In this document: positions 6,753 to 40,598 of the stretch, in pieces
How positions within the stretch are numbered: position 1 is the first letter of the stretch
Layout of the letters: each line of letters starts with the position of its first letter
NCBI GenBank assembly: GCA_964036045.1
Contig: OZ038385.1
Coordinates: forward strand, 43,575,722-43,639,721
Length of the DNA stretch: 64,000 nucleotides
Source of the DNA: Eutreptiella sp. 'Long Island Sound 2002'
Lineage: Eukaryota > Euglenozoa > Euglenophyceae > Eutreptiales > Eutreptiaceae
Direction: 5' to 3'
Program-made: the position numbers and the translations under genes
The notes under the pieces: model-generated
What the model saw: the letters and a program-made list of their open reading frames with translations, nothing else
Told to the model about the DNA's origin: nothing
The model's database searches: none

Positions 6753-8626
6753 ATGGATGAGTACATCCTACATGAGGAGTACTACAAATCCATCTGTGGG
6801 GAAGATGGAGAGGAGCCACTAGCTGTACATGGATCCATACCACGTACAGACCTAGGGTCCTACGCACACTCAGGTCCTCCGTCCACTGCATCCCTGCCAA
6901 GACGACTAAGACCTGAGTATCCAAGACCATGTTGTCCAACCCCAGGGGCTCCAGAAGTGGGCCCGACACGAGTCGAAGAACAACAACATCCAAGGCCAAC
7001 CTACGGTGCCCTGGATCAGACGGCCGAGCTGTTGGCCAAACTCCTGTCTGGATCAGAAGATCCAGATGTGACGGCCCTATCGGAGGCCATTAAGGCTAAA
7101 CTGGGTATTGCAGAACCCTTACCCAAGCCTGAGTTGCCCTCTCTCTCTCCAGGGCTGAGTACCCTGGCCGAAGATCTCAAGAGATCAAGGGTCTCAAGGC
7201 TGTTGCCTAAGGTCACCTGCCCCAGCCCCTTTCACCCCCGTGCCAGGACTGTGCCTATGGCTGATCTACAGGACGTGCCTGTCACAGAGAGTGAGAGAAG
7301 AGGGCTGTGAGCCCTGGCCCCTCTTGCCGGCGTGTCGCCTTCTGGCCTAACTCCGGGGGGTGGGAAGACGGGCAGACCAATTGCCCAGGCGAACATCCAG
7401 CTGGAACTGCCGGAGTTCGACCCCAAAAATCTGCCTGAATGGGCGGAAGAATTTGCAGAGTTCCTTTTGTTGACTGGCCAATCCCATGTGGATGTGGCCA
7501 CCAAATGTTCACTGCTAAAACGCTCATGCAAAAAGAAATTTTTGCAAAGACAGGTCAAACAGATTGTGAAAACCTGTTCTACCTGGGCAGAGGTACTCCT
7601 GAGGTTAGAGAAAACATTCCCAGTCTATGAGACTGACCTCAGCGTACGCACACAGATCGAGGAGCTACCTATGCTCCCGGAGTTTCCATCCGCTGCGCGA
7701 ATTTCTGAGTATGTGTGCGACTTGGAGTACTTATTTTCGAGGATGAACGTGGGCTCCTACGGAGCCACTGAGCCCCACCTGTGGCTCATGAGTAAGATCC
7801 CCCAGCGTACGTGGGATGATTGCCGCTCCACCTCTGAGAGGAAGAGCAGGACCCACTCGTACGATGAACTGGTGGATCTCTTAATTGAGCTAGCTCTTGA
7901 GAGAGAGAATGACTCCCACATGGAGAAATTCCTCAAGAAGGGTTTGGGACGAGGTGGTACCCCTACCCCCGAACGTGGCGAAGGGAAGGGGCATAAAAAT
8001 CCCACTACACCAACCAGGGAGGTGGTAAAGGGAGGGGCAACCTACGTGCCATGAACGAGGTTCAACCTGATGCAGGCACACCCCCCCTGTTCTACTGCCG
8101 ACCTGTCAATGACAAGGGGGGACCTTGTCATGCTTCTGACTGCGATCTCCGCAGTGGTTGTATGCTGCAGATGAAACGTCAGCAGCACACCAAGGATGGG
8201 AAACAGGTGACCCATCAGGACCATTTCGGGTATACCATCACCTGTGGTTACTGTGGCAAACGTCGTCACTACGAGGACGAATGCCACATCAAGAAACGCG
8301 AGAGTGACAAAATCAAGCGTCAGGAGGCGGAGCGCCAGAAGACCCAGACGCCCGCCAGAAATCCCCCGAATGGGGATAAAGGTAAAGGAGTCGGCAAGGG
8401 GGGTGGCAAAACTGGACCCCCTAACCCCCAGAGGCGCTCATCAGCGCCCGTTGCTACCCCCACTCCTGCTGCTACACCCGCTCCTGCCGCAGGTGAGCCT
8501 AAGAAACGCCCCCAAGGGGATAACGCTACCCCTGAGGGGAATAATTCAAAGAAGAGGCGCTTGGCCTGGATGGCCAAGTCCCTCATGGCTGCAGGGGTGG
8601 ATGTGAAATTCCCTGATGAGGAATAG
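6753..8626 (+). pseudogene. gag: gag of LTR-A, broken by a stop and a frameshift
   Basis: Segment 6753-7310 ends in TGA and continues in the same frame at 7332-8054, which carries the capsid-like region (ELPEFDPKNLPEWAEEF onward), parallel to residues ~414-590 of the intact LTR-B Gag. The nucleocapsid part is in another frame (8051-8626), with a CX2CX4HX4C knuckle (CGYCGKRRHYEDEC) and a basic, Pro/Ala-rich tail. A one-base shift between about 7980 and 8050 is therefore needed. The first ATG of this frame is at 6753, since stops lie just upstream. The final TAG at 8624-8626 matches the gag/pol stop of LTR-B, but a base is missing in the following G run, so pol is now out of frame. Confidence 0.85.
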
Positions 8627-11600
8627 GGGGGCGACCCGAAGAGGAGCAGTTGGTTTTCTGGATCCTCGTGAAAATCGGGGATCAGGTTTTTCGAGCGGTG
8701 CTTGATACCGGTGCAACACTTTCCATAGTGGCCCGGCGCCTGCTTAAGACTTTCAGGAAAACTAAGACCGTGGCCATAAGAGTAGGGGATGGGCGTACCA
8801 TCCATTCCTTGGGGGGGGTCGATGTGACCATATGTCTGGGCAACGAAACCGTGACCCAACACTGCAGAGTGTCGGACACTGACGCCTTTGACATCGTCAT
8901 TGGCACCGACTTTCTAAGAAGAAACCCCCAGGTTAAAATGCTGTCCCTACAGCGTCCTTACTCTTTGCACTGCGACTTTGGCAGTGGGCTATTCTCCGTT
9001 CCTTTGGAGCTGTCAGGACGAAAAGAGTCTGGGCTGCGCTACGCAGCCAAGACGAACTATCGTACTGAAAACTACCAACTGGCCCGTCACGTTCTTGAAA
9101 ATGGACTGGCGGCCCTTCAGGTAAACCTGGATGAGATCCAGGTGGAATTGTTTGCGAGCCAACAACAGCACATCATGCAGTTGTACTGCTCGAAACAAAT
9201 GAACAATGCTTTCCGTTTCTTCTGGAAAGCAATGGGCCTAGCGTATGCTAACCCTCCCTTCTCCCTGCTCGCGAAGGTTCTAACCAAAATCGCTTATGAG
9301 GGAGGAAGGGTTGTTATGTGCACCCCTGACTGGGGTTGCTCTGGTGAACATGCTTACTGGCGCCGTATGCTAGATCGAATGACCGTGGGAAGAGTGCAAC
9401 TCCCCGACGGCCCCATCTATGTGCCTGAGGACTCAGACACAGCTATGCAGGCCCCTGAGTGGGCCAGTTTCCTGTCCATCATCGATGGATCTCTCAATCC
9501 TGTACCCCTGTGTGACCTAGACCAGGTGCTACTAAAAGAGGTCATGGCCGAAAATCGTGGCCTGACCCTTTAGGATCTCAAAAATCAATCTCCTGAGCAC
9601 CTATCTGCCACACTTACAGGGTGTGAGTCTCCTGATGACTATCTGGAACCTGCAGCTGTAAAAGAGGATGCTGACGACCAACTGTCTGAGGTCGTGAGCA
9701 CTATTCCCTCTGTTGATCCCAGCTGTGTTGACCTAAAACATAGTGCCTTCCTAGCCCAGCTGTTGCTAGAGGAGGTAGATCTAGAGTCAACCTCTGAACC
9801 CGCTTCCCCTGTTGGGAAGCCATTGCTACACATGCAGCCTGTGCACACAGGTGAACCCGTGGCCCGGAGTACTGATGCTCTGGCGCGGCCTGCTGCTAAT
9901 AACATGCCATTGTCTGAGCATGACACTCAAGAACTCCGGCGGCTTTTGTACCTGAAGGCCGGAGGTATTGAGCGCCAAGAGCGGCTGCAATACCTCAGAC
10001 AGACCTGGAAATACTCCATCTGGTCTGAGGAGGACGATGAGTCCTATACGCTGCCTGATCCTGAGATACCTCTAGTGTATTCTCTACACTATGGGCAGCA
10101 ATGTCCCCCTGAGTGGGACGATGGTACTGTGCCTGCCGAAACTGCTGATCGGCATAAAAAGAAAGAACATGGAAAAAACAACCTCCATGCTGAGGAGGAT
10201 TTCCTTCATAAACTCGAGAGTCTTAACCTTGACCCCCGCCTGAAGAAACTGCTGATAACCTATGAGGAGGTGTTCGGCGCCTTGCCGCCTCCCCTTTCTT
10301 GTAAAAAACTGGTCCAGATGGACCTGAAATTGAAACCAGAATTTGAAAAGACGCGAGTGAGGCGTCGTCCCTATCCCGCTCCACAGGAACAGGTCGAAGA
10401 AATCGAGCGCCAGATCCAAGAATGCATTGATGCTGGCCTCGTTGAAGAGTATAAACACGGGGACTATCCCCATCACTGCAGTCCCTGTTTCCTTGTTGCT
10501 AAACCAGGGTCGACTGCCCTATGTCTTGTTGTAGACTATGGTGAGGTCAACAAGAAAACCCAGAACCACTCAGGGAGTATTCCTAACATGGAAAACACCC
10601 TGGAGCGTATTGCCAAATGCAGGTATCAGACCAAAATGGACAAACGCTCTGGTTTCTGGCAGGTTGACCTAACCGCCGCAGCTCAGGAGCTGCTGGCCTT
10701 TATAGCCCCTAAGGGTCGTGTCTTCAAGTGGAAGGTTATGCTATTCGGGGTGGCAAATGCCCCAGCGCTCTTCCAGGAGCTTATGAACAAAATTTTGTAC
10801 ATACTGAGGCGCAGGCCTCTAGTACAAGAGTTGATTTCTCGGGGTGCAGAAATGGAGGCTCACATCGACGACGTGAGTTTGGGTACTAATACCAAAGAGG
10901 ACCACGTCCTTCTCCTCCGTGAATTTTTCACTGTCTGTCAAGAAAACCATCTCCGAATCAAACTAGAAAAATGTGAGTTTATGAAAGAGGAGATGGAGTA
11001 TTTGGGTTTCGACGTGGGGTACGGCTGGTGGAAACCAGCCGCGTCTAAGATGCAGCCCCTACAGAACATGCAGATTCGCGATGACCCTAAGAGGGGTCTA
11101 CACGATGTGAGGAGTTTTGTGGGCGCCTGTAATTTCTATCGGCGTCACATCCACAATTTTACTTACTCCTCTGCACCCCTCACTGACCTGATCAAGAAAA
11201 CTACTCCCTGGAGATGGACCTCCAGAGAGGAAGAGTGTTTCCAGGAGTTGAAGAAGAAGATTGCCTCCTCCAACTGCCTGGGAGTGCCCCGCCCTGAGGG
11301 CGAGATAGTCCTGATCACTGATGCCAGTGATGTAGGGGGGGGAGGTACGATCTACCAATGGCAGGAGCTTAACCCCGCTGAACTAACCCACTGCCATTAT
11401 CGTACTACTGGACTGAACCGTGATGGTTCGTTGAAACATGACTATCCTACCAGTGAGTGGCGACTGGTGCCACTGGGACACTGGAATTGGAAATGGAACC
11501 AAGCGCGTTCCAACTACAGCACCTATGACCAGGAACTCCTGGCCGGTATGTTGGTGCTATCGTCACAATCCCGACTCCTGGGACCTAACCCTATTGTCTG

Positions 11601-13428
11601 GCTGTGTGACCAGGAGCCTGTGAAGTCTTTTCAGAAGGGCCCACCACCTGAAAAAGCAAAGCTAAAACGGTGGTGGACTTACCTGAGCCAGTTCAGGCTG
11701 ACAGTGCATCATATCCCCGGGATTAAGAATGAACTGTCTGACTATATATCGCGCAACAACTTCGATGCGCTTATTGGTGAGAGCTCTGAGGCGCTCGCCA
11801 AAGAGGCTTTCCAGCGTATGGATCTCCAGCTTGACCTGTCCATGCGCACTGCCGGAATCCTGGAGGGTTGGAGTCTAACCGACTATCAGTCAGAGTATGA
11901 AGAAATTCTCCAAACCCTCAGCACTGGTCTCGAACCCCGTGTCATTGACGGGCACCAGTGGTATAAAAACCATCAGTACCTCTTCTACGAGGACCGAATT
12001 GTGGTGCCTGAGGCACGACTGGATGGGTGCCTACAGTGGTCCCATCTCAGTTCTGGTCACACTGGCGCTAATTGCTCAGTGGACCTCTTCCGTGAGTGTT
12101 TCTACTCTAGTCTAACCCTGACCGAACTGAGGTCGCGTATGCAGACCATTTTGGATGCTTGTGGCTGTCATGCCAGCAAGCAGAGCGACAGTAGGGATAG
12201 GGGCCTGATCTCCAGCTTACCCATACCCTATTGTGCTAACTCTCTTCTCTACGTGGATTACATCCACGGCCTACCACGCTTTGGCGGCTATGATAGTTGC
12301 CTCGTGGTCACCTGTGGTCTATCTCGCTTCACCCGTGTGTTCCCTTGCAATAAGAAAATCACAGGTGAGCAGACTGTGAAAATGTTGGTCGAACAATGGT
12401 TCGAACCCTATGGAGCACCTAAGCAGGTGCACTCTGATGAGGATGTACGCATCCGCAGTGACACTGGGTGGTACAAACGAGTGCTAAATGCCCTCAACGT
12501 GGAGGTAACCACAGGTGTGCCCTATACCCACACGTCTAACCCTCTCTGTGAGAGACAGAACCGTGTGGTGGAGCAAAACTTAAGGATCCTGATGAAACAG
12601 GAGCGCACCAAGGACTGGGTACGCCTAGTGCCCTGGGCAGTGCTGTCCATGAACTCACAGCGGAGCTCTTCTACGGGTTTCACCCCCCACGAACTGTTCC
12701 ATGGAGGACGACCTGCTTGGTTCTTCAAAACCCCCTTCCCTGAGGACTTCAAGAGCCCTGTGGGAGATTGGCTGGAACACAAGCAGTCTCTGGCTAACAA
12801 GGCTGGTACTAACCTGAGGCACATTCGTGTCCGTGAACAGAGCCGACGGGGCCGCCTACGGCGACCTGCCAGCTTCAAGGTTGGTGACCTTGTTTTGGTA
12901 CACCATTCACGCCTACCCTCCTGGCCACGTAACTGCCTACAGGACCCTTACTTTGGACCCTATCCTATCATCAGGATAGATGGATCCAGGATCCATGTCA
13001 GGTGCAGTCCACGTCTAGGTGGTGAACTGCTGTGTGCACCTAAGCAGTTGAGGCACTATCACTCCCCTGACAACTTGTCTTGGGATGAGTGGCGCCTCAG
13101 CGACAGTGAGATTGAACGTATAGACCTAGAGAACGCTGCCAGCCCAGAGGAGGCAGACGAACTCGAAGAGATGACTGCCGATGAGATGGCAGTCGATGGT
13201 TACTACGTGGTTGCAGGTATTGCTCGCCACGAATATAAACAGGGCTGGAAATTCCTTACCCTGTGGGATGGCTATGGGTTGTCTGAGGCGACCTGGGAAC
13301 CTATGTCAGCCTTCATACAACCAGATGGGAGTATCAACCCCATCTTCCGCACTTACCTCGTTGAGAACAACGAGGGGCAGCTCCTAACCCGTGCTGAGAC
13401 TATGTCCCAGCGTAAGAAGCGAAACTAA
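8627..13428 (+). pseudogene. pol: pol of LTR-A: protease, Dam-like domain, RT, RNase H, integrase, chromodomain; one internal stop
   Basis: The open frame from ~8650 carries the aspartic protease motif LDTGA (about 8701) and a domain containing VELFAS and NPPF (about 9141-9420) resembling a Dam-type DNA methylase fold. A TAG at 9571-9573 interrupts the frame where LTR-B has a Ser codon. The same frame reopens as a 1244-residue stretch (9694-13428) with the RT box HIDD (about 10863), RNase H (ITDASDVGGGG, about 11315), an integrase zinc region (H-x4-H, later C and C), a D/D-35-E core (second D in HSDED about 12430, E in LCERQ), and a C-terminal chromodomain (YYVVAGIARHEY... TWEP). It is close to the intact Pol at 35670-40598. 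There is no ATG; expression would have been as Gag-Pol. Confidence 0.92.
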
Positions 13429-19632: not shown

Positions 19633-19634
19633 AA

Positions 19635-19670
19635 TGAAATGCAGCGTTCTAGGGCGTGGTGCGGAACCCC
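19635..19670 (+). repeat. Left TIR of transposon T
   Basis: It begins TGAAATGCAGCG and ends GGAACCCC. It matches the reverse complement of 26691-26726 except at positions 3-4. Confidence 0.88.
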
Positions 19671-19826
19671 TAGTTAGAACGCAATTTCTGGAAAACCCAC
19701 CTACCCTCAATTTTGGGGCAAACCACCTAAAAAAATGGATTCAGCACCCTCAAAAAACCCCCATCCCCTTTCTTTCCCCACATAACCCTCATCGTAGGGG
19801 TGGTTTTTGGGGGGGGGGTCAAACAG

Positions 19827-19955
19827 TTAGAGCACAGTTAGAACAGAGTTAGAACGCAGTTAGAGCACTTTGCTATAACTAGTTATCGCGCTAGTTATCG
19901 CGCGATAACTCAGTTATCGCGCAGTTATCGCGGGTAGTTATCGCGCACCCCTCCT
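19827..19955. repeat. Array 1 of transposon T (GTTATCGCG / GTTAGAAC motifs)
   Basis: Repeated gttagagca/gttagaac units are followed by several gttatcgcg copies in both orientations. The array lies between the left TIR and the end of the transposase ORF. Confidence 0.75.
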
Positions 19956-21674
19956 CCCTCTCTCCCTAGGACAAACAACACAAAACACTTGGCACAAAGC
20001 ATCTGTGGTCGTTTTGCATACAAAGTCATCACTGTCTGAGGCCTTGGCTGCCTCCAGTCCCAAAAGCCCTTGCTCCAGGGCGTTCATGGACATGCAATGG
20101 TGCATGTGGCGGAGGGACATACTTGGCCTCACCAAGGACCAACCCTTAAAACAATTTTTGAGCCTCCTCTTGTAAGGCCCATGCCGATACTCCGTTGGGA
20201 TGGAGGAAAACTGAAAAATGTTCCTCCATTTCTCGGCAAAAAAGGTGGAATGTGCCAAGCACCAATGGATCCACCTGGTGGGGGACCAACCTGAGTCTCC
20301 CCACGCTTTTGAAAATCTTGTGGTCAACGCACGGTGGCGTTCCACTTGGGTTAGAGTGTACAACTCCCTCACCCTCCAAAGCTCATACAAACCCTCAATG
20401 CATTTGACCATGACATGCACAACAACCCATAACATAGGTCCCCCAGGGGTCCTCACTGTGGGGACATGCTCTTTGAGGCAATCCACAAATTGCCTTTGGA
20501 AGGGGGGGGAGGTTAGGAAAACTTTGGTGCTTGTTAGATCGAAATCTTTTTCTGTGGCCCTTGAGGCCGATGGGAGGCGTTCCCTCAGAGGGATGCCTGA
20601 GGTCTCATCCTTGAGGGCTTGTTTGAAGGCCTGCAAAGCTGCAAGAGCTTGGGCCTTACCAGGGGTACCAGGGGGGAGGGCCTGAAGGGTGGTCTCAATG
20701 CGCTTTGCAATGCCGTTTAGGATGCGGCATGCTGCATGTTGGTAGTCCCCCGGCCGCCTATCAGGGGTCACACTTCTCAAGAATGCCCCCCATCTTGAGG
20801 TGGACTCCACCCCCATTTGCTCAACAATCCCATTGGGGTCTTTGCACAACCAACACTTAGACCCAGCCCCCCCCATTGCTTGCATCCCCTTCCCATCCCC
20901 TGTCAAAATGACAGTGCAAGTCAAAAATTGGTTTTGAAAGAGGACAACGTCCTCTTCCACATCCCTCACCTCTTGGTTGAGGTTGGCGGAGATGTCCAGG
21001 CTTCTCAAAAAAGCCTGTTCATCCCCGCCATCCATGCAAAACCATGAGGCCCATAGCTTCACCTTCGAAGCATATTTTGCCCCCCCCCATACATTAACCC
21101 ATACATCCGCACGGGTAGAGGATGCCTTCCACAAGGAAGTCGCATCAACTGAAATAACAATATTGGCAACCCCACTAGGGGGGGGTTTCCCAATAACTCG
21201 GGCCATAGATATTGCATTTTGCACAATTGATTGCAAAGGCACATGGGCAGCTGCCCTATTGCGGCCTGTGGTAGACTTTACAATGGTGGTTTGGGGAAAG
21301 TAGGGCATGATCCGTTGCCGAACGGTCCTTAGGTCCCGTTGTGTGCAACGGCGGGGCATTCGCAAAAGGGCCCGTTGGGAGAGATGGATGCTGCATGCCA
21401 TGCGTAGCATGCTCAGGGCCTCATGCTCCTGAGCTGTTAATGCAAGATGGCCGCCAAGTGGGCCAGACAGGGCAGTGCACGCCCCACCACTTGAACAAGC
21501 TTCGCCTTTGGTGTTGGTGCCACACACGACGTCTGGGTCACCCAATAGAACTGGCACCAGCCGCTGAACCGCCTTCAAACGCCGCCGCCGGGCCTTGGGG
21601 CACTGCAGATCGGTGTACCGCCGGAGGTTAGCTGTGTTGAGAGCCCCCAGGGCCTCATTGACAGCACTGTCCAT
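19938..21674 (-). CDS. Candidate D/D/E (RNase H-fold) transposase of T
   Basis: 578 residues from the ATG at 21674 (the frame extends 21 codons further upstream without another ATG). Candidate acidic residues are D177 (ISVDATSLWK), D260 (LTGDGKGMQ) and E495 (SIPTEYRHG); a CX2C pair (KCWLC) lies just after the second Asp. Spacing of about 83 and 235 residues fits transposases with a large helical insertion before the final Glu (hAT, RAG/Transib, KDZ types). Conserved-looking His/Cys (HWCLAHSTFF) precede the Glu. The single frame has no internal stop, so the protein may be functional. Array 2 lies just upstream and would be its control region. The catalytic assignment is by eye, not by alignment. 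Confidence 0.6.
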   Translation of the reverse strand: MDSAVNEALGALNTANLRRYTDLQCPKARRRRLKAVQRLVPVLLGDPDVVCGTNTKGEACSSGGACTALSGPLGGHLALTAQEHEALSMLRMACSIHLSQRALLRMPRRCTQRDLRTVRQRIMPYFPQTTIVKSTTGRNRAAAHVPLQSIVQNAISMARVIGKPPPSGVANIVISVDATSLWKASSTRADVWVNVWGGAKYASKVKLWASWFCMDGGDEQAFLRSLDISANLNQEVRDVEEDVVLFQNQFLTCTVILTGDGKGMQAMGGAGSKCWLCKDPNGIVEQMGVESTSRWGAFLRSVTPDRRPGDYQHAACRILNGIAKRIETTLQALPPGTPGKAQALAALQAFKQALKDETSGIPLRERLPSASRATEKDFDLTSTKVFLTSPPFQRQFVDCLKEHVPTVRTPGGPMLWVVVHVMVKCIEGLYELWRVRELYTLTQVERHRALTTRFSKAWGDSGWSPTRWIHWCLAHSTFFAEKWRNIFQFSSIPTEYRHGPYKRRLKNCFKGWSLVRPSMSLRHMHHCMSMNALEQGLLGLEAAKASDSDDFVCKTTTDALCQVFCVVCPRERGRRGAR

Positions 21675-21734
21675 GAAGAATAAGAGGACCTGGACACGAA
21701 ATGAGGGAGGGTTTTGAAGCAAGGGCCCAAAAAA

Positions 21735-21935
21735 CACACGCGATAACCCACGCGATAGCCCCCGCGATAACTAGGTTATCGCGCGATAACCCCCGCGATA
21801 ACCCCCCGTGATAACTAGTTAGAGCGCGATAACCCCCCGCGATAACTAGTTAGAGCACCCAGTTAGAGCGCGATAACCCCCGCGATAACTAGTTAGAGCA
21901 GGGGTTAGTGCGCACTAACTGGTGGGGTTAGAGCA
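21735..21935. repeat. Array 2 of transposon T, upstream of the transposase
   Basis: About eight CGCGATAAC copies alternate with TAGTTAGAGC units. The 16-bp palindrome GTTATCGCGCGATAAC occurs near 21777. Its position immediately 5' of the transposase suggests a promoter or protein-binding array. Confidence 0.8.
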
Positions 21936-22144
21936 AGCGTTGGGCACCCTAAAACCTTCACAAACGTTGATTTTGCACCCAGGAAACCTTGGAGATGTCA
22001 GCAATGTGCAGGCACGGGGTACATGGCGCTACAATCACAAATTCAAATCAGTCAAATGGACATGTTCCGGGCTAGTTGCCCCTCCTCAGAGTCCACAGAG
22101 TACAGTAATAGAAATAGTGAACAATAATCGAATCACAAATAACA
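21936..22144. other. Spacer in T, no gene seen
   Basis: The motif gttgggcaccctaaaac near 21939 recurs as attgggcaccctaaaac near 22169, so the spacer is bounded by a short direct repeat. No ORF of note. Confidence 0.5.
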
Positions 22145-22769
22145 CTAGCTGGAGGGGTTAGAGGGAGCATTGGGCACCCTAAAACCCATGGACAGCAGCT
22201 GCTGCCGCCACACAGGCGTGCAGTGCAGAACCCCCCCCGTACTATAAAAAATCACGCTCCATCGCTCGCCCTCCCATGGCAATGGAGCGTGTAGTGCCCT
22301 GGTGTTGAACAACACCGGGGCTTGGGGGGTGGCGGTGCATGCCCAACCCTTTACCGCCGTACCCTTGCACACACGGGTGTGCCGCTTTTTTTCCCTCAAG
22401 GAGGGATTCAGCAGGCCACCACTCTCCACCCCCCGTGAAAGACCCCACACACACAATAAGCGCCATGGGCGCCCCATCCCGCAAATGGGAGTGGAGGCCC
22501 ATGGTGTCCGTCCCTTGGGGGCGAACAATTTGGATGCTACACCATGTGAACCATGGTGGAGCATTGGAGGTGCAATACCCATTGAGGTCTGCCTCCAAGG
22601 GGGTGAGGGCAGGCCTGAGGGTAGCAGCGGCCATGTGGGTCGCCCTAAAATTAGAGGGGTTGGGGTTTCCACTTCCCACGAGGCCGAAGTGGCACATGTC
22701 CACTTGGGCCCCATATCGCTCCTCCCCACGAAAAATGCCCTTGGGCAACCCCTTGAGCAAATCCACTAG
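22145..22769 (-). pseudogene. TET/JBP-like 2OG-Fe(II) dioxygenase domain, frameshifted, HxD motif altered
   Basis: The first frame reads MDLLKGLPKGIF..., then WCSIQIVRPQG, LHSHLRDGAP, and GSFTGGGEWW. After a shift in a seven-base A/T run (22386-22392) the second frame gives RALHAPLPWEGERWSVIFY. The pattern (strand, metal site, G-x-F-TGG, then His ... G-x-R-x-S-V-x-F) is that of TET/JBP-type DNA dioxygenases. Distal His and 2OG-binding Arg are visible, but the first metal motif reads HSH where HxD is expected. The frame is collinear with the coiled-coil ORF upstream and separated from it by a single TGA (22770-22772), so both may be one gene. It may be inactive, or the altered site and shift may be assembly errors. 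Confidence 0.5.
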
Positions 22770-23970
22770 TCATTGGCTCCCACTCCTACTCCCGCTACCC
22801 TGACTCTGCAACCCTTGCGGCGCCAGCCCCTGCTGGGCCTGCTGCACCCCGAAGGAGGCACAGAGGGTGGAGGTGAGGCTGCGCACCTGCGCCTCAGCCA
22901 CCCCCAAGCGCTGCCCAAGGTCATCCCCCCTCCTCCGCTGCCCCTCCACCTCCACCCTAAGCTGAGCCGCCTCCACCTCCGCCTTCCGCCTCCCCTCCTG
23001 GGCCTCCCTCAGGGCCTCCCTCATCGCCTGCACCTCCTCCCCCCTCTTGGCGGCCAGGTTGAGGTCCTGGTCCAGGGCACGCTGGGTGTTGCCCTGGGCC
23101 TTTTCGGCCTTCGCCAAGGCCGACTTGTGGTCGGCCGACCGACCCTTGGCCAGTGCGGCCTCGACCCCCGTGGCGGCCGCCTGCTCCACCAAAACCTGGC
23201 AAGCGTCCGTCACGTGGGTGGCCACACTGGCCCCCAAGGCCTCCACGTCCAGGGCCTCATGGGGGGGCTGGGCTGCCGCCACGTTTGCCACCTTCGATGG
23301 CTTGGGGGAGGGCTTGGGGGCGGGGGTTTGGCCCTTACCCCTAAGGGGGGGGGGGGGCATCCGGCTCAACCACCACCACGTCTGGTCCCCGCTTCGTCTG
23401 GCCTTTTCCCAGCCTTCCCCCCTTGGGTGCATACTGCCGAACCCAATCGGCAGTGGCGTCCACCACAGAAGGGGGGGGGTCATACCCACCAACCTGGTGG
23501 ATGTCCCCCCCCCTGTGCAGCTTCTGCCACACTTCCCTCCCCGTATACTCCCCCTCCCACAAAAAAAACACCCTCAAAAGGAAATAGGATTTCCTTAAGG
23601 GGGGGTCGCTCATCCCAAACAAACACAAAAAAGCCGCAACCGTTTCCCCCTCTGCGGCTTGCGGCCACTTGGCCGTTTCCCCCCCAACCCACAAATAGGA
23701 GGGGAGGGTGAGGTTGGTCTTCCTCTCCACCCCCCCCTCCTTCTCGGTGATGGTGACCTGCCGGTACCATCCCGTCCCCCCCATCCTGCAGGCCTCATCC
23801 CAAGGCTCCCCCCACCGCCAGGACACCCCCTCCGGCAGCCTCTTCTCCCCCTTCAGCTCCAACCGGGCCGCCACCGGCTTGGCGGGCCGTGCCCCTGCTG
23901 CTTCTGCCGCTCCGCCTGCTGCCTCGGCTGCCTGGGCGTCGTCCTTGACGAAGATGCGGGGCAGCTGCAA
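22770..23970 (-). pseudogene. Unknown globular domain plus coiled coil, transposon T gene B
   Basis: The first frame (23970-23341) gives a basic globular stretch (LPEGVSWRWGEPWDEACRMGG ... REVWQKLHRGGD) that I do not recognise. A shift in a 13-G run (23345-23357) leads into a frame rich in Ala/Glu/Arg heptads (about 23300-22850), predicted coiled coil, then a Gln/Ser-rich end and TGA. No ATG opens the first frame. A pyrimidine tract ending in CAG precedes the codons QATILQLPRIF (~23980), so an upstream exon is possible. Array 3 lies immediately upstream. Confidence 0.45.
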
Positions 23971-24004
23971 GATGGTAGCCTGAAAAAAACAAATGAAACA
24001 AAAA

Positions 24005-24195
24005 AAAACACGCGATAACCCGCGCGATAACCCCCGCGATAACTAGGTTATCGCGCGATAACCCCCGCGATAACCCCCCGCGATAACCCCACGATAACTA
24101 GTTAGAACGCGATAACCTAGCGCGATAACTAGTTAGAGCACCTAGTTAGAACGCGATAACCTAGCGCGATAACTAGTTAGAGCAGGGGTTGGAGC
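24005..24195. repeat. Array 3 of transposon T, upstream of gene B
   Basis: It has the same mixture of CGCGATAAC and TAGTTAGAGC/GAAC units, with GTTATCGCGCGATAAC near 24048. Confidence 0.8.
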
Positions 24196-24214
24196 AGGGT
24201 GTTGTGGGAAGTTT

Positions 24215-26339
24215 TCACACCTGGTGACATGGACACATGCCTTGGCCCTCCTTCTTGGCGTCGTCCAGCACCAGGCCCAGCCTCCGCAGCCACACGAAGT
24301 CCGTGACGGCCGCATACTCCCCCACCTGCCGCCAGTTCACCACCTGGGCCACCCCCTCCACCTCAGGGGCCACCCTTGCCACTCCCCCATACAACCCCCT
24401 CCTCACCACCAAAATGATGCCCGCCGGCACCTTCATCCCAACATGCCCTTGCAAGGTGTGCCAGGGCAGTGCCTCCCCATGGCGCACCTTGGCCAAGGGG
24501 CACTGATCGGGGTGGCCTGCGACCGCCCCCGCCTCCTCATTAGTGAGGGGGGCAATCACCTCCCTCCCAATCCCCCACCCCGACAACAAAAAATGCCCTG
24601 TGGTTGTTCCCACCGGGAGCAAGCACTGAGCAGATTGCTCAATGCTGACCCCATTCGGGTCCACCACCACCTCCTCCTCCTCCCCCCCCACCACCTCCTC
24701 CCCCTCCTGGCATGGCACACAAAGGCCATCTTTGTGGGCGGTGAACAAAATCAGCCGATTGCATCCGTAGCAATTGGCTACCACCTTCCCCCTACACCTA
24801 AGCGCCCCATCACACTGGACTGTCGTGGCCACCCGGCCACCAGGTGCCCCCAGCTGGGGCCTCTTAATGGACTGTGTCACGTGCAGGTTGGGGAATCGAA
24901 GATTCGCCCCCTGGGTAGGCTCAATGGCAAAAAATGCCATGAGGCGGGGGTCCCTTACCCCCATGGGGGAGGCCTTGGGAATCCCCGACCCCCTGTGGAC
25001 ATCAAGGGCATTAAAAAAAACGCAGTGCCCCTCTTGAATGGCACAGCCCTCTCCACCCAAGGGTCAGGGAACCCCGAACTGCTGGAGGGCACAAAAAGAA
25101 AATATGACCCATCCTCCTCCTCATGATTATGGGTTAGCATAATAAGGCAATTGACAATCAATGTGCCTTCAGGAATGGTGTAGGGGGGGGCGTCGCGATG
25201 GAGGTGCTGGGGGGTGTGGTCATAGCTCGAAATTTCGGCCATGTCAAGGATGGTGCAGCTCCATCCGCCCCCCTCCACCACAGTCTTCTTTGCGGTCTCC
25301 AGCACACGATCTGCCACCCTTTTGAGGACTGGCAGATCATGGAGCTTGTGGGGGTTGTGCTTGTGGTGGTTGGCACCCCCATAGTTGCCATACAATGTGC
25401 GGCGGGTCCCAGAATCTTGGGGCCTGTCGACAATGGGGGGGTTCTCATTGAAAATGGGTGCCTTCTCTGAGAGAGGCACCCTATCCAAATCATCCAAAAG
25501 ACTTTGCAGCTGCACATCACTCAAAAAATCGTGCTCCAGGAGGTGGTTGACCACCAGCTTTCCCCCCACCGTGAGCACAAGGTCATTGGGGTCCCTATTA
25601 AAGGCCCCCAAGGGCTCGGCGGCAACCACCTCCTGCGCCTCCCCAATAAGGGGGGGTGTTGCCCCAAATGGAAAAAGAATCACCCCCTGCCCCGAAACAA
25701 TGTTGGGAGTGGTGACCCCATACCACTCACGCTCCCACTCCCTTGTGGGGCAAAGGGAGTGCATGGGGAGCTTGTTTTCGGGGTCGTCAGTGCAGACCCG
25801 GCGGGTGTTGTGGGTGAGGGGTGGGAGAACCAACCATCCGACTTCCCCTTCCCCTTACCCGGTCGGATCCTTACCTTCTGGACACTAATCATGAGGGGGT
25901 TGTGGGGCTTCTCCTCCCTCCCCCCAGCCCCCAACCCCCCCGCATCCTCCTCCTCCTCCTCCACTTCCTCCTCCTCCTCCTCCTGACCCACATAGAGGGT
26001 CGTCTTCGTCCCCGCACCCTTCTCGGCATGGGCGGTGACGGACTCCACCACGGCGTCCACGTCCTCGGGATGAAGCTGGATCAAAAATCCAGCAACCCCT
26101 GGATTTACCTCTAGCAACTCGAAGATGTAGTTGCTGAGAACCAGGGGGTCTCGCTTGTCCGCCATGAAGGAGGACTTATGGACAAGGAGTCCAAAGTCCA
26201 CACCATGTTCAAAGCGGGTCGCCACAGGGCGCCTCACATTGGCATCACCCATCGTAAACCCCTCAGGACCGCCAAGGCGACGGACCCCAAGGAGCTTTTG
26301 ATGGTGCTCGCACCAAGCGTGGGCAGCAGCAAGGGCCAT
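24215..26339 (-). pseudogene. 2OG-Fe(II) dioxygenase-like protein, transposon T gene A
   Basis: ATG at 26339. Three overlapping frames form one collinear protein: 26339 to ~25840 (acidic Glu tract, GKGKGKSDG), ~25833 to ~25015, and ~25020 to 24215. The middle frame has an oxygenase-type core: WSCTILDMAEISSYDHT, then HLHRD (HxD at about 25200-25192) and LIVNCLIMLTHN. The third frame supplies ALDVHRGSG (distal His) and RDPRLMAFFAIEP (candidate 2OG-binding Arg). A Cys-rich segment (QCDGALRC ... NCYGCN ... CVPC) may bind zinc. The second junction falls at an eight-A run (25013-25020), so an indel is likely; the first could be an indel or an intron (AAG|GTAAGG near 25870). Substrate unknown. Array 4 lies upstream. 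Confidence 0.5.
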
Positions 26340-26394
26340 TATCAAAGAATATGAAAGCTTTGAGAGCTAAAGCGAAAAGGGGAAACATAAAATG

Positions 26395-26550
26395 AAGCGC
26401 GATAACCCACGCGATAACCCACGCGATAACTAGGTCATCGCGCGATAACCCCCGCGATAACCCCCGCGATAACTAGGTTATCGCGCGATAACCCACGCGA
26501 TAACTAGTGCTCTAACCCCGTTCTAACCCCGCGATAACTAGTTAGAGCAC
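26395..26550. repeat. Array 4 of transposon T, upstream of gene A
   Basis: Six or more CGCGATAAC copies in both orientations, then gtgctctaacc and gttagagcac as an inverted pair. Confidence 0.8.
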
Positions 26551-26690
26551 ACAAAGATCAAATCGCAAAAAGTGCAAAACGGGCAATATCGAGCAAACGA
26601 AACATGGAAGGCACATTGTTGCATCATAGTTCACCCATGTAACATGTGAAATTCCGGGGTTCACCCATATTAACAACACCCAAAATTGGG

Positions 26691-26726
26691 GGGGTTCCGC
26701 ACCACGCCCTAGAACGCTGCATCCCA
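26691..26726 (-). repeat. Right TIR of transposon T
   Basis: Read on the minus strand it begins TGGGATGCAGCG and ends GGAACCCC. The gag reading frame of G1 resumes directly outside it. Confidence 0.88.
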
Positions 26727-26728
26727 AA

Positions 26729-28930: not shown

Positions 28931-29510
28931 ATCTTCGGGAGCTCGGGATGCCTCCTTTGACAATGCAAGAAGAAGGTCTTACCAAGGGGACCTCCTGTCC
29001 CTCCCACTGCCCTACGTCAGCTGCCTCTTGAGCCGCTCCTGCATGTGGTTGGGAAGGCATTGTCGCGGCCACCCGGTCCATGCGTTCAGGTGGGAGGGTG
29101 TCCCCACATGTGTCCATGGGTAGGGCCACATGCCCCCTCCTTTGGGCGGCAGCTCTGGGGGCTGCCCAGCCGTGTGGAGTATCTCTCACCACAAGGGGTA
29201 TTGCTCCCGCTTGTCTACGGTACGACCGCCTCACCCTTGTGGCTTGAGTTGCGGGGCCACTCTGCCTGGCAGGCGACCCCCTCCTGGACTGTGTACCGGC
29301 TCGCCTGTCACCGGTTGTTTCCATGGCTCCGGGTGACGTTTGCCATGGTCCCCGATGCAGCCTGGCCGGACTCGGACCAGTGGCCTTGGAGTACCGCTCC
29401 TGCCCCTGGCCCGGTGGGTCGGCCGGGTCTCCCCGGTGCGTCCGACCCATGGAGTGTCGGTTCTTTCCTGTCCCTCGGCCGCCCTATGTGTGCGAGGTGT
29501 CCCGGGCCTC
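28931..29510. other. GC-rich stretch, no supported gene
   Basis: ORFs on both strands are long only because of base composition. No recognisable domain. Confidence 0.4.
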
Positions 29511-30260
29511 TTGGCTCCTGTTCACCGGTGTGCTCGCGTGGTTTGTTGTGCTGTGTCTGCGGTGTCCTGGGCCGCTTGGCTCCTGTTCACCGGTGTGCCC
29601 CCTCGGTGTGGTGTGTTGTGTGTGCGGTGTCCCGGGCCCCTTGGCTCCCGTTCACCGGTGTGCACGCTGGCTGTGTTGTGTTGCGTGTGCGGCATCCTGG
29701 GCCACTTGGCTCCTGTTCACCGGTGCGCCTGCTCGGTGTGTTGCTTTGCGTGCGCCGTGTCCTGGGCCACTTGGCTCATGTTCACCGGTGTGCCTGCTCT
29801 GTCTTTTGTTTTGTTTGTGCGGTGTCTTGGGCCACTTGGCTCCTGTCCGCCGGTGTGCCCGCGTGGTTTGTTCACCGGTGCGCCCGCTCGGTGTGTTGTG
29901 TTGCGTGTGCGGTGTCCTGGGCCCCTTGGCTCCCGTTCACGGGTTTGCCCGCTGGGTGTGTTGTGTTGCGTGTGCGGTGTCCTGGGCCACTTGGCTCCTG
30001 TTCACCGGTGGGCCCGCTCGGTGTGTTGCTTTGCGTGCGCGGTGTCCTGGGCCACCTGGCTCCTGTTCACCGGTGTGCCTGCTCTGTCTTTTGTTTTGTT
30101 TGTGTGGTGTCCTGGGCCGCTTGGCTCCTGTTCACCGGTGTGTCCTCTCGGTGTGCTGTTTTGTGTGTGCGGTGTCCTGGGCCTCCTGGCTCCTGTTCAC
30201 CGGCGCGCCAGGCTATGGTGTCCCGCCCCTCTGTTGCCCTCGGTGCGCGCGCGTGTGCGG
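29511..30260. repeat. 65-bp tandem repeat array, about 11 units
   Basis: The core ttggctcctgttcaccggtg recurs at 29511, 29576, 29641, 29706, 29771, 29836, 29926, 29991, 30056, 30121 and 30186. Spacing is exactly 65 bp except for one 90-bp step that contains a partial extra unit. Since 65 is not a multiple of three, successive units are read in different frames, yet all three plus frames stay open. That argues against a real protein. Confidence 0.85.
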
Positions 30261-35669: not shown

Positions 35670-38600
35670 CGGGGACGCTCTGGTGGCACCCAAGACCTGG
35701 TGTTTTGGGTACGTATCCGACTAGGGGGACGTGAATACCTGGGGGTACTGGATACTGGAGCCACAATATCGATAGTGGCCAAGAAAATTTTACCTTGTGG
35801 GAGCCTGAAGAACACCATGACCACCGCCGCTATACGGATTGGGGATGGACATGTGGTGCACAGCTGCGGGGACTGCGAAGTGGAGGTACCTATGGGCTCC
35901 AGGACTATCGCCCATCGGTTCTATGTGATGGACACTGATGCCTTCGACTTTGTACTGGGTACTGACTTCTTCGTGCAGCACTCCCAGATACAATCCCTGA
36001 CGCTGCAAACGCCCTACCTCCTGTACGTGGACCACGGCAGTGGCAGAGAGTCTGTGCCACTGGAGCAGTCGGAACATACCTCGAGTTACCTGAGACTATC
36101 GAAGGAGGAGCCCTCGAACATGATGGCGGCCTCCAAAACTGAGGACTACCAACTATTGGGGGAAGTCCTAGACCAAGGTCTGAAGGAGTTGGGTTACTCT
36201 CGAGAAGACCTAAGTGTGGAGCTGTTCGCCAGCGACAAGCAGCATGTACTGGACCTATACTGCAGCAAGGGGAAGAACTGCAGCTACAAATTTTACTGGC
36301 CCTCTTTCGGGATGGCCTACGGGAACCCCAGATTCAGTGAACTGGGGAAGGTGCTGACCAAGGTGGCCTTGGAACGTTCCCGTATGGTCCTGTGTTCCCC
36401 CGATTGGGGAGCCCATGGGGGCAACGAGTACTGGCGAACCCTCCTTGACAAGCTGACTATCAGCTCTGTGCGGTTACCTGATGAGGCCATCTACGTGCCT
36501 CTGGGACGCAAGACGCCCATTGGGAAGCCCGGATGGGGGAGTATGCTCAGCGTGGTGGACGGGAGTCTTACCACCATCCCCTGGGAAGACCTAGACCCTA
36601 CTCTGGTCCAGGCTATACAACGAGAAAGCGATGGACTCGCCTTGAGTGACTTGAAGGATCGCCTACGACCTCAAGATGCTGTTGAAACTACACCCGGAGG
36701 AGATGAGTACGTCGTGACTGACACCAACGCCCCCAACTCTCCCTGTCATGTACCTGTTCCTGATGGAGTCTCTGAGTGTGGACTATCTGAGCTACCTAGC
36801 TCTATCCACTCAGACGACGAAACTGAGCACGACGCCTTCTTCGTGCAGACTGCGGTGGAAGAAGTGGAGAACGCCGAGTACGTCGCCCCACTAAAACCCC
36901 TACTCTCCATGAGGGTGGAAGACCCCGTGGATGAAGAGCTGGACCCTCGATCCAGGCTCAGGGAGTATGTGGATTCCAAGAGGAAGTTGGTGGCGAAAAA
37001 GCTATGCTACGCGAAGCCTACCCGCAGCTCATGGCCACTGAAGCAAGGACGGATGGGAGACCTATCCCAACTGAAGGAGGACCTCGAACAGAAGATCACC
37101 ACCTGGCAAAGGGAGGTAGATCTCAAGCTCATGAAGAGCGTATGGGGTGCCCATGTGAGGACCCCAGAGGAGGACGACCTCTCGGAGGAATGTGTATGTG
37201 AACCCCCTAAAGCGTGCCTATGTTGCCATCGTCCACCGGAGATGGTTGAGCAAGACCTTCTGTATGCCTACCAAGGGCTGAAGGATGCTACCGCGGGCGA
37301 AGAGTCGGTGGAGGACCACCTCCCGACGTCTATTCAAGGGGCAAGCAACTTACACTCCGACGAGGACATGGAGGACAAGATCAAGGTACTGGACCCGCGG
37401 GTACAAAAGCTGATAAGGACCTATCTGGAGGTGTTCGGAGAACTACCCCCTCCAGCCTCATGCGACAAGCTGGTACAGATGGACCTCAAGCTGAAACCCG
37501 AGTTCGTGGGTCACAAGATCCGGAGGAGACCCTATCCAGCTCCTAAAGAGCAGGCCGACGAGATTGAGCGACAGATACAAGAATGTATCGACGCTGGCCT
37601 AGTCCTGGAGTACAAGGATGGGGACTACCCCCTACACTGCAGCCCCTGTTTCCTGGTGGCTAAACCTGGGTCTACAGCCAAACGGCTGGTAGTGGACTAT
37701 GGAGAGCTGAACAAGAAGACGCTGAACCACTCAGGGTCCATTCCCAATATGGAGTCTACCCTGGAGAAGATAGCCTCCTGTCGCTACAAGACCAAGATGG
37801 ACAAGCGAAGTGGATTCTGGCAAGTGGACCTGACGCCCAACGCGCAGGAACTACTGGCCTTCATCACCCCTCAGGGGAGGGTATTCAAGTGGAAGGTCAT
37901 GCCATTCGGCGTGGCTAACGCCCCCGCTCTGTTCCAAGAGCTGATGAACAAGATCTTGTCCATCCTACGAAGGAGACCTAAGGTGCAGGAGCTCATATCC
38001 CGTGGGGCCCAGATGGAGGCTCACATCGACGATGTATGCCTCGGGACCAATACCCAGGAGGATCACCTAATCCTCTTGGGTGAGTTCTTTGCGGTCTGCC
38101 AGGAGAACCACACACGACTCAAGCTGGAGAAGTGTGAGTTCATGCAGGAGACCATGCAGTACCTGGGGTTTGACGTTGGCTATGGGTGGTGGACCCCAGC
38201 GGCCTCTAAGGCCCAACCCCTGATGGATGCCAAGGTACGACACGAAGACCCCAAGAAAGGACTTCATGATGTACGCAGTTTCATTGGGGCGTGCAACTTC
38301 TATCGCCGCCACATCAAAAACTTCACCTACACCAGCGCGGTACTGACTGACTTGATCAAGAAGAGTACTACTTGGCGCTGGGGCCCACAAGAGCAACAAG
38401 CGTTTGACGAGCTCAAAGACAAGGTAGTCAACGCTAAGTGCTTGGGCGTGCCTAGGGCCCAAGGGGAGATTATCCTGGTGACCGACGCCAGCAATGTGGG
38501 CGGTGGTGGAACGTTGTTCCAGTGGCAAGCACTAGAGAAGGAGGAGTTCGACTCGGCCATTTCCCAATGGGGGACGGAAGGTCTCAACCGAGATGGAACC

Positions 38601-40598
38601 CTCAAGCACAGCTACCCTGACGACAAGTGGGTCCTAGTACCTCTGGGCCACTGGAACTGGAAGTGGAACCAGGCCAGGGGGAACTACTCCACCTATGAGC
38701 AGGAACTGCTCGCGGGTATGCTGGTGCTATCCTCACAAGCACGACTGTTGGGGAGTAACCCTGTGGTCTGGCTATGCGACCAAGAACCGGTCCGCAGTTT
38801 CCAGAAGGGCCCCCCACCTGAGAAGGCCAAGCTACGTCGCTGGTGGACCTACCTCAGTCAACTACGGCTGACGGTACACCATATCCAGGGAGTGAAGAAC
38901 GAGTGTGCCGACTACATCAGCCGCAACAACTTCGACGCCCTGATTGGTGCCCGGTCTGAAGCGCTGGCTAAGGAGGCGTTCAGCCGTATGGACGTACACC
39001 TGGACCTGAACATGACCATGATACGCCCCCTGGATGGACTCCAACAATCGGAGTACCTACAGGAGTTTGGGGATATCTACCGGCGCCTGGAGAAACGCCT
39101 TGAACCCCTCCTGGTCAACCAAGACCAGTGGAAGCGGGACAAGAGCTACCTCTGGCACGAGGACCGCATCGTGGTGCCTAGTGACCGAGTCCCAGCGCTG
39201 CTGAAGTGGACCCATGAGTCCAGTGGTCATGTGGGTGCTGACCGTACCCTGAGGCTGTTCAAGCAGTGGTTCCACACTACGTGGACTGACGACCAGCTGC
39301 GGAAGACGCTCCTGCCTATCGTGGACAAGTGCCCGTGCAGGTCCTGTAAACCAGGGGATATCAGGGACAGAGGTCTCTACTCGACCCTGCCCATCCCTCA
39401 CTGTGCTAACAGTGTTCTATACGTGGACTACACGGAGATGCCGAAGTTCGGGGGCTATGACTTCGCCCTCGTGGTAACCTGTGGGTTGACCAGGTTTACC
39501 AGGGTGTTCCCATGTACCAAGCACATTACCGGAGAGGAGACTATCAAGATACTCCTGGAGGAGTGGTTTTGTGTCTATGGGGCGCCCAAGGAGATCAACT
39601 CCGATGAGGACGTACGAGTACGCTCAGATACTGGCTGGTACAAGAGGGTCCTGAGGTCCCTCAATGTCCAGGTGTCTACGGGGATTCCCTACTCTCACAC
39701 GAGCAACCCCCTATGTGAGCGACAGATTCGTGTCCTGAAGGAGAACGTCAGGATATGGTGCAAAACTGAACGCACCAGAGACTGGGTGAGACTACTCCCC
39801 GTCATATCCTTGATGATGAACTCCCAAGAGAGTTCAGCTACTGGCTACTCGCCACATGAGCTATTCATGGGGCGCCCGGCATGGTTCCTACATGCCCCCT
39901 ATCCAGAGGACACCCATTCTTCTGTGGGTGAATGGGTCCAAGAGCAACAAGCGAAGGTGGACAAGGCCAAGGCTCTGCTCCAGAGAGTGAGGGAGCGTCA
40001 GTGGAACAAGAAGAACAAGCACCGTGTACCGGCCACCTACCAAGAAGGGCACTGGGTGCTGGTGCACCACAGTCGACTACCCGCCTGGCCACGCTCTACC
40101 AGCGATGACCCATACTTCGGGCCGTACAAGATCCTATCTGTGGATGGACACCGTATCACCGTGCGGTGTTCTCCCCGTCTAGGGGGGACCCTGGTGTGCG
40201 CCGCTCAACACCTGAAGCGCTACCATGATCCTGAAGACCTCTGTGGGGAGGAGTGGGAGCTGAACGACGAGGAAATCGCCGCTCTGGACCTACAAGGGGC
40301 TGCCAGCCCTATGGAAGTTGAAGGTGAACTCCCCGACATGAACGTCGAGGAGATGGCTAAGGAGGGCTTCTACCTGGTGAAGTCTGTCCTACGCCACCGC
40401 TATCGCCAGGGTTGGCGCTTCCTCACCCTCTGGGAAGGGTTTGGAGTCGAAGAGGCCACCTGGGAGCCCTTCTCTGCATTTGTTCTACCTGAGGGACGCC
40501 TAAACTCAGTTCTGGTTGACTACTTGTCCCAGAACAACCTTGGTGAGTTGTTGAGGCTCGCTGAGACGCTTGCCTCCAAGAATAAAGCTAGGGACTGA
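35670..40598 (+). CDS. pol: Pol of LTR-B: PR, Dam-like domain, RT, RNase H, IN, chromodomain
   Basis: Same frame as gag and no ATG near the start. Residues from 35700: protease LDTGA (~17-21); Dam-methylase-like domain (~172-265, VELFAS ... AYGNPRFSELGKVLTK ... CSPDW); acidic linker; RT (~620-860) with DYGELNK and the catalytic box HIDD (~774) in place of the usual YxDD; RNase H (VTDASNVGGGG, ~925); integrase zinc region (HESSGH ... CPCRSC, ~1170-1220); D/D-35-E core (YVDY ~1238, SDED ~1298, CERQ ~1337); chromodomain (YLVKSVLRHRYR ... TWEPFSAF, ~1556-1600), which in this group directs integration to marked chromatin. No internal stop or shift. At 1632 residues Pol is long for Ty3 elements because of the extra domain and linker. 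Confidence 0.95.
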   Translation, partial: RGRSGGTQDLVFWVRIRLGGREYLGVLDTGATISIVAKKILPCGSLKNTMTTAAIRIGDGHVVHSCGDCEVEVPMGSRTIAHRFYVMDTDAFDFVLGTDFFVQHSQIQSLTLQTPYLLYVDHGSGRESVPLEQSEHTSSYLRLSKEEPSNMMAASKTEDYQLLGEVLDQGLKELGYSREDLSVELFASDKQHVLDLYCSKGKNCSYKFYWPSFGMAYGNPRFSELGKVLTKVALERSRMVLCSPDWGAHGGNEYWRTLLDKLTISSVRLPDEAIYVPLGRKTPIGKPGWGSMLSVVDGSLTTIPWEDLDPTLVQAIQRESDGLALSDLKDRLRPQDAVETTPGGDEYVVTDTNAPNSPCHVPVPDGVSECGLSELPSSIHSDDETEHDAFFVQTAVEEVENAEYVAPLKPLLSMRVEDPVDEELDPRSRLREYVDSKRKLVAKKLCYAKPTRSSWPLKQGRMGDLSQLKEDLEQKITTWQREVDLKLMKSVWGAHVRTPEEDDLSEECVCEPPKACLCCHRPPEMVEQDLLYAYQGLKDATAGEESVEDHLPTSIQGASNLHSDEDMEDKIKVLDPRVQKLIRTYLEVFGELPPPASCDKLVQMDLKLKPEFVGHKIRRRPYPAPKEQADEIERQIQECIDAGLVLEYKDGDYPLHCSPCFLVAKPGSTAKRLVVDYGELNKKTLNHSGSIPNMESTLEKIASCRYKTKMDKRSGFWQVDLTPNAQELLAFITPQGRVFKWKVMPFGVANAPALFQELMNKILSILRRRPKVQELISRGAQMEAHIDDVCLGTNTQEDHLILLGEFFAVCQENHTRLKLEKCEFMQETMQYLGFDVGYGWWTPAASKAQPLMDAKVRHEDPKKGLHDVRSFIGACNFYRRHIKNFTYTSAVLTDLIKKSTTWRWGPQEQQAFDELKDKVVNAKCLGVPRAQGEIILVTDASNVGGGGTLFQWQALEKEEFDSAISQWGTEGLNRDGTLKHSYPDDKWVLVPLGHWNWKWNQARGNYSTYEQELLAGMLVLSSQARLLGSNPVVWLCDQEPVRSFQKGPPPEKAKLRRWWTYLSQLRLTVHHIQGVKNECADYISRNNFDALIGARSEALAKEAFSRMDVHLDLNMTMIRPLDGLQQSEYLQEFGDIYRRLEKRLEPLLVNQDQWKRDKSYLWHEDRIVVPSDRVPALLKWTHESSGHVGADRTLRLFKQWFHTTWTDDQLRKTLLPIVDKCPCRSCKPGDIRDRGLYSTLPIPHCANSVLYVDYTEMPKFGGYDFALVVTCGLTRFTRVFPCTKHITGEETIKILLEEWFCVYGAPKEINSDEDVRVRSDTGWYKRVLRSLNVQVSTGIPYSHTSNPLCERQIRVLKENVRIWCKTERTRDWVRLLPVISLMMNSQESSATGYSPHELFMGRPAWFLHAPYPEDTHSSVGEWVQEQQAKVDKAKALLQRVRERQWNKKNKHRVPATYQEGHWVLVHHSRLPAWPRSTSDDPYFGPYKILSVDGHRITVRCSPRLGGTLVCAAQHLKRYHDPEDLCGEEWELNDEEIAALDLQGAASPMEVEGELPDMNVEEMAKEGFYLVKSVLRHRYRQGWRFLTLWEGFGVEEATWEPFSAFVLPEGRLNSVLVDYLSQNNLGELLRLAETLASKNKARD

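Follow-up and report, generated by a model that had tools for sequence, protein, structure and literature searches.

A possible case of stop-codon readthrough in a CMCT-like DNA transposon of Eutreptiella that carries oxygenase-like genes

Fungal DNA transposons that encode TET proteins (TET+ transposons) fall into 11 lineages, among them EnSpm, Plavaka and ESTA of the CMCT clade, according to Kojima 2025 (PMC12730594); one of these lineages encodes a third protein, and the Plavaka families with TET are all PlavakaB. The same paper gives the CMCT signature as three residues, D, D and E, the last two of which flank C(2)C and H(3-4)H, together with a target-site duplication (TSD) of 2-5 bp, and notes that most CMCT elements, but not all, have 5'-CA..TG-3' termini, PlavakaA being an exception. 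In the KDZ transposons (Zisupton, Kyakuja, Dileera) a transposase is likewise associated with dioxygenase-like genes. To our knowledge, how transposon-borne TET/JBP enzymes are dosed and aimed is an open question. Here we describe a transposon found in a 64,000-nucleotide stretch of the Eutreptiella sp. 'Long Island Sound 2002' genome (the window; C8:43575722-43639721 of a 2.28-Gb eukaryotic assembly of 2205 contigs) in which a stop codon, in a context associated with readthrough, splits one of the coding regions. Set against the fungal TET+ transposons, it is similar in combining a transposase with a gene of 2-oxoglutarate (2OG) oxygenase type, in its CMCT motifs and short TSD, and, as regards one of those lineages, in encoding a third protein. 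It differs in that the weak matches of its gene A are of PhyH/P4H type and not Tet_JBP, that its B2 region is unmatched by Tet_JBP and lies behind a stop codon, that CpG-dense arrays stand ahead of each gene, and that its termini are TGGGAT...ATCCCA.

19635..26726, no strand assigned: complete terminal inverted repeat (TIR) transposon, 7092 bp, delimited by TIRs and TSD against other copies

The element has three transcription units, all on the minus strand. This much of the preliminary description stood, but what had been read as one gene B consists of two pieces in the same frame, B1 and B2, split by a TGA; the stop codon and its readthrough context had been overlooked. The coding order is gene A, B1, B2, transposase. 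In the full-length copy L018, gene A has 708 aa counted from its ATG, B2 has 211 codons and the transposase 552 aa; an array comes before gene A, before B1 and before the transposase, a fourth follows the transposase, and the TGA stands between B1 and B2. In the window copy gene B comprises:

22770..23970, minus strand: gene B1, helix-rich and probably coiled-coil, with an approximate start; in this copy a C/G run carries one frameshift
22766..22772, minus strand: TGA stop codon with CTAG, a candidate readthrough signal
22145..22769, minus strand: B2, in frame after the TGA, with motifs resembling TET/JBP; frame shifted in this copy by a 10-bp deletion

B1 ends in SGSQ followed by TGA, after which B2 continues the frame with CTA GTG GAT. 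TGA is a normal stop in this element, since gene A and the transposase are likewise terminated by TGA (L018). Is B2 then translated as an extension of B1, as a protein of its own, or not at all? We lean slightly towards programmed readthrough, in which ribosomes would mainly terminate at the TGA, yielding B1 alone, and would occasionally pass it, yielding B1 fused to B2; this seemed fairly likely before the comparison with private variants given below. Readthrough is favoured because the TGA is kept in nearly all copies read, because protein similarity begins directly after the stop, because no array lies ahead of B2, and because of the UGA CUA G context. According to PMC4359377, stops that are read through at high rates in human cells have the consensus UGA CUA, and UGA CUA G appears to give the strongest basal level. 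The AQP4 and LDHB genes treated there share with the element both this context and an in-frame extension; they are, however, host genes whose readthrough has been tested, whereas here a whole-domain extension in a transposon is a candidate drawn from sequence.

Similarity to other proteins starts ahead of the first Met of B2. Protein P0079 is identical to B at 17 of the 18 residues after the stop (B1, 243/385), and P0077 at 148/178 positions in B2 and 111/154 in part of B1. This bears on a quite unlikely alternative, that the TGA is an ordinary stop and B2 a separate protein made from its own Met (about codon 25) through reinitiation or an internal promoter. B2 is a compact open reading frame (ORF), and all of its motifs would still be present from that Met; yet similarity precedes any Met, the absence of an array before B2 and the UGA CUA G context also speak against it, and the frame is continuous across the junction in all five hand-picked subfamily copies (L059-L063).

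The junction itself is retained in nearly all copies read. GGGAGCCAATGACTAG stands there in 29/29 loci (L030-L058, of which L047 overlaps L014), B2 being open for at least 200 codons in 28 of the 29; TGACTAG is present in 10 of 11 loci covering the junction, and the aligned copies have TGA in 39/39 and CTAG in 38/39. Among the genome matches of P0077 (the best 117 of 4591 candidates, P0077's own locus included), 113 contain TGA: a tally made by hand, from a table that gives no stop position, counted 89 with TGA alone, 24 with TGA and another stop, 1 with only TAG and 3 with none. Three older subfamily copies (L059, L060 and L061; 94-97% nucleotide identity to L018) retain TGA, followed by CTAG, CTCG and CTAG, respectively. 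It is gone in L062, which is the P0077 locus and has CGA, and in L063 (TGC). At the protein level, 12 of 16 homologs reaching the junction end there and four continue, with Arg, Trp, Cys or Ser.

Several of these data weigh against programmed readthrough. Retention of the TGA is largely common descent, because most copies are young and 97-99% alike; loci L030-L058 were retrieved with a query spanning the junction, and the B1 frame is open for at least 400 codons upstream of the TGA in only 10 of the 29. The context departs from CTAG in L021 (TGATCCG) and L060 (TGA CTCG), and a sense codon occupies the junction in those four homologs. The similarity of the copies and the four sense codons, like the silent-change comparison below, suit another reading, in which a master lineage acquired the stop and left B2 as dead sequence behind B1. 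We hold this to be unlikely, given that copies only 94-97% alike to L018 retain both the TGA and an open B2, that B2 is open in nearly all the loci L030-L058, and that Arg, Trp, Cys and Ser are each one step from TGA, which fits a TGA ancestor (codons were seen for just two of these, CGA for Arg and, in a different copy, TGC for Cys).

Two other ways of passing the TGA bear on the same codons. It could be removed with a 33-nt GT-AG intron, as the stretch GTAGCGG...CTAG in L018 is of that length and in frame. Since introns are usually far longer than 33 nt, and since L060 retains the TGA but has CTCG and so lacks the AG, splicing is very unlikely. Selenocysteine would agree with the Cys at the junction in P0079 and L063, but Arg, Trp and Ser are found there too, and the 21 matches that L018 gives at E 10 or better include no selenocysteine insertion sequence (SECIS), leaving this the most improbable of the readings.

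Selection tests separate gene A and the transposase from gene B. Among variants common to at least three copies, nonsynonymous to synonymous (N:S) counts were 16:20 for gene A, 8:18 for the transposase, 16:7 for B1 and 5:4 for B2; among private variants they were 142:63, 159:98, 119:49 and 53:34. Common and private variants differ for gene A (p 0.007) and the transposase (p 0.003), and show no difference for B1 (p 1.0) or B2 (p 0.74). Gene A and the transposase evolved under purifying selection, as working genes, since their common variants are poorer in nonsynonymous changes than their private ones. For gene B the five subfamily copies add further weight against readthrough: codon changes were nonsynonymous in 47/79 cases in B2 (private, 53/87; p 0.87) and in 63/90 in B1 (private, 119/168; p 0.89), with no difference between B1 and B2 (p 0.20). 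Against a theoretical neutral ratio the same copies gave p 0.005 for B2 and p 0.30 for B1; as the former contrasts with the p of 0.87 against private variants, a claim of selection on B2 was dropped.

What would readthrough add to B1? B2 contains HSHLRDG, FTGG and HAPLPWEGERWSVIFY; we take the latter two to be TET/JBP-like, a reading that no profile confirms. Six of its residues (H93, H95, R97, D98, H164 and R173) are invariant in 6/6 sequences. Against an oxygenase reading, the metal site is H-[S/A]-H-[L/F]-R-D with no clean HxD, the distal residues being H164 and R173, and B2 matches nothing significantly in Pfam, PHROGs or PDB (DUF5763 at E 0.2). Tet_JBP (PF12851) gives no match for L018 B2 at E 10. 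The preliminary description took gene B to be dioxygenase-like; a TET/JBP enzyme is not proven there, and we put B2 as a TET/JBP-like oxygenase a little below an even chance. The single Tet_JBP match in the genome lies outside the element, on a short contig (C2034:19243-19665; 74.7 bits, 534-aa frame), and may be a host gene or a contaminant. In the window the B2 region is 10 bp shorter than in its best genome matches, and a 44-bp direct repeat (89%) lies at and below the B2 end, facing the transposase array (21913-21956 / 22143-22186).

B1 is 413 aa long in P0068. It matches the ATG16 profile at E 0.026, below the cut-off, and its helices are predicted in a low-confidence AlphaFold model (mean predicted local distance difference test, pLDDT, 39) that is unusable for the fold.

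The other oxygenase candidate is gene A, where the preliminary description's reading as dioxygenase-like is borne out by HxD...H...R motifs and by PhyH matches below the cut-off:

24215..26339, minus strand: gene A, 2OG-oxygenase-like (HRD ... DVHRG), with two frameshifts in this copy

Its motif series is HLHRDAPP ... FNALDVHRGSGIPK ... R. By eye, HRD is present in 8 of 11 in-frame rows (the exceptions are P0042, RRE; P0048, HRG; and P0052, HRE) and DVH in all eight rows still in frame at that point. The motif part matches PhyH at E 0.0075-0.031 (15-17 bits; curated cut-off 22) and 2OG-FeII_Oxy_3 at E 0.073 (14.5 bits; cut-off 27). On the other side, all Pfam matches of gene A fall below curated cut-offs and its AlphaFold model (mean pLDDT 26) is too poor to show a double-stranded beta-helix. 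We hold it quite likely that gene A is a working 2OG-Fe(II) oxygenase. Introns behind its frame breaks were ruled out, as relatives carry one uninterrupted ORF. Kinship between gene A and B2 was not detected by hhalign, and no viral relative of gene A or of the transposase was confirmed among the viral contigs searched.

Four clusters of CpG-rich units lie beside the genes, just as first reported:

26400..26549: CpG-dense array ahead of gene A
24013..24184: CpG-dense array ahead of gene B
21741..21935: CpG-dense array ahead of the gene for the transposase
19827..19944: fourth array, at the far end, chiefly of inverted units

The window holds 28 CGCGATAAC and 8 GTTATCGCG units, and 36/36 fall within the element; chance expectation for CGCGATAAC in the window is 0.23 per strand. 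CpG observed/expected is 1.66-1.98 in the arrays, 0.41-0.49 in the genes and 0.68 in the whole window. We think it probable that the arrays are promoter-proximal binding sites common to the three units, to which proteins of the element would bind. One or both oxygenases might then oxidise a methylated base or chromatin mark at the arrays and so keep the element expressed, a step we regard as less likely than not. The fullest version of the model, unlikely as a whole, is that UGA readthrough would attach a little oxygenase to an abundant coiled-coil carrier that binds the arrays, and that this oxygenase and the gene A enzyme would strip or convert base methylation precisely at the promoters of the element. 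If so, the leaky stop would set the dose of the enzyme and the arrays before each gene its aim, and the transposon would have an unusual route to small amounts of a possible anti-silencing enzyme.

The CpG decay pattern is compatible both with methylation or local demethylation and with their absence. Private CpG transitions number 61/12471 in the genes against 164/79321 at other C/G sites (2.36-fold), and 20/4420 in the arrays against 20/5219 (ratio 1.15); the ratios differ (bootstrap P 0.03, private variants). That said, the CpG transition rate is the same in arrays (20/4420) and genes (61/12471; p 0.90), which goes against demethylation at the arrays, and the methylation signal is weak, since CpG transversions in the genes are also raised (52/12471 vs 195/79321, p 0.001). 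The idea that arrays escape methylation decay, suggested when the CpG excess over all variants seemed missing there, was abandoned because absolute CpG rates are equal. Self-demethylation, proposed in the preliminary description as explaining all parts, is plausible and not proven, array CpGs decaying at the rate of gene CpGs.

Repeated subterminal motifs are the usual binding sites of CACTA-type transposases. A substantial possibility, although short of an even chance, is accordingly that the arrays are transposase binding sites and that the role of the accessory genes lies elsewhere than in demethylation (hydroxylation of RNA or protein, or the chemistry of transposition). The weak matches of gene A are to PhyH and P4H types and not to TET/JBP, and the CpGs of the arrays do not escape decay, both of which agree with it; against it, arrays also occur internally, ahead of each gene, and TET/JBP genes have been captured repeatedly by fungal transposons (PMC12730594). 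Among the papers listed for TET, KDZ, transposons and readthrough, none was recognised as describing the element's gene set, and among those listed for DNA transposons with stop-codon readthrough (including PMC8226300) no such case was recognised; PMC10085805, where both terms occur, is outside this comparison, so that priority is not established. Passages of papers on Ectocarpus (PMC12477816) and Euglena (PMC12455990) have no bearing on the gene set.

The transposase announced in the preliminary description is present, with D, D, C2C, H4H and E motifs:

19938..21674, minus strand: transposase bearing these motifs; this copy has lost the family stop codon

Of 12 aligned rows, six are shortened or out of frame. 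The other six extend in frame into the C-terminal part, and by eye five of them (P0002, P0028, P0031, P0032 and P0033) have the complete motif series, P0003 being without the second D. P0028, P0031, P0032 and P0033 are relatives with 31-37% identity on metagenome contigs of 2-3 kb. No Pfam match was found for the transposase, and its best PDB match (E 0.095) is at chance level. The element shows both the CMCT motif series and a TSD within the 2-5 bp range; it lacks 5'-CA..TG-3' termini, having TGGGAT..ATCCCA. Judged by motifs and TSD, the transposase appears to be CMCT-type (EnSpm/Mirage/Plavaka-like). PlavakaA is similar in its 2-bp TSD, in termini that start with TG and finish with CA, and in its CMCT motifs; its termini are TGT..ACA, and the likeness noted is one of features (PMC12730594). 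Membership in KDZ, to which the preliminary description had turned for comparison, is excluded by the CMCT-type motifs and by a TSD of 2 bp against the 7-8 bp given for KDZ in the same paper.

The limits first given for the element are exact, because the family TIR is 36 bp long and the left end of the window copy is merely altered:

19635..19670, plus strand: left TIR, 36 bp, with 2 changes from the family TIR
26691..26726, minus strand: right TIR, 36 bp
19633..19634: TSD AA, left copy
26727..26728: TSD AA, right copy

Comparison of the ends of 20 loci gives the family TIR as TGGGATGCAGCG...ACCCC. The window copy begins TGAAAT, with 2/36 TIR positions altered, and 32 bp of its two TIRs are identical. 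Nine of 13 end pairs legible on both sides have an exact 2-bp TSD (CA, TT, AA, TA, CA, AT, TA, CA and AA; chance p = 8e-9); of the other four, three have one base in common and one has a damaged TIR. A related repeat at about 44513-44590 of the window resembles an empty site (ACCTCATGCCATGTGTTC) and is compatible with the TSD CA of L011. The element is a cut-and-paste DNA transposon, one decayed copy of a high-copy family. A preference for insertion into hairpins, first suggested by flanking sequence, is not claimed: palindrome scores at the 13 insertion sites average 5.6 against 4.2 (p 0.0009), but the medians are close (5 vs 4) and the raised mean stems from two sites, L018 (score 13) and L022 (12), whose flanks exceed all 1500 control positions, these taken from the window alone.

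The 13 end pairs enclose elements of 381-7150 bp, short derivatives coexisting with full-length copies (L018, 7104 bp; L022, 7150 bp; L025, 7106 bp; and that of the window). Shorter copies with the same TIRs, which the preliminary description had named as a sign of captured debris, thus exist; gene A and the transposase are not such debris, because their common variants show purifying selection. Initial genome searches gave 1391 candidates with the TIR end and 1078 with B2 DNA, 40 of each being scored; these totals, like the 4591 for the B protein query, are not copy counts. Protein clusters at 90% identity have 220 and 491 members for gene A, 219 for B1, and 275 and 174 for the transposase. 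The frame breaks of the window copy (two frameshifts in gene A, one in B1, the 10-bp deletion in B2 and the lost transposase stop) are decay, because relatives have longer open frames. L018 is imperfect too, the N-terminus of its B1 being out of frame relative to P0068.

The rest of the window is rich in repeats. Ty3/gypsy-type pol regions (reverse transcriptase, RNase H, integrase) occur at 8620-13428, 35670-40598 and 58272-61217, the last also with a chromodomain, and a long tandem repeat of 65 bp, whose higher-order periods are 155, 220 and 285, extends over 29487-30203.

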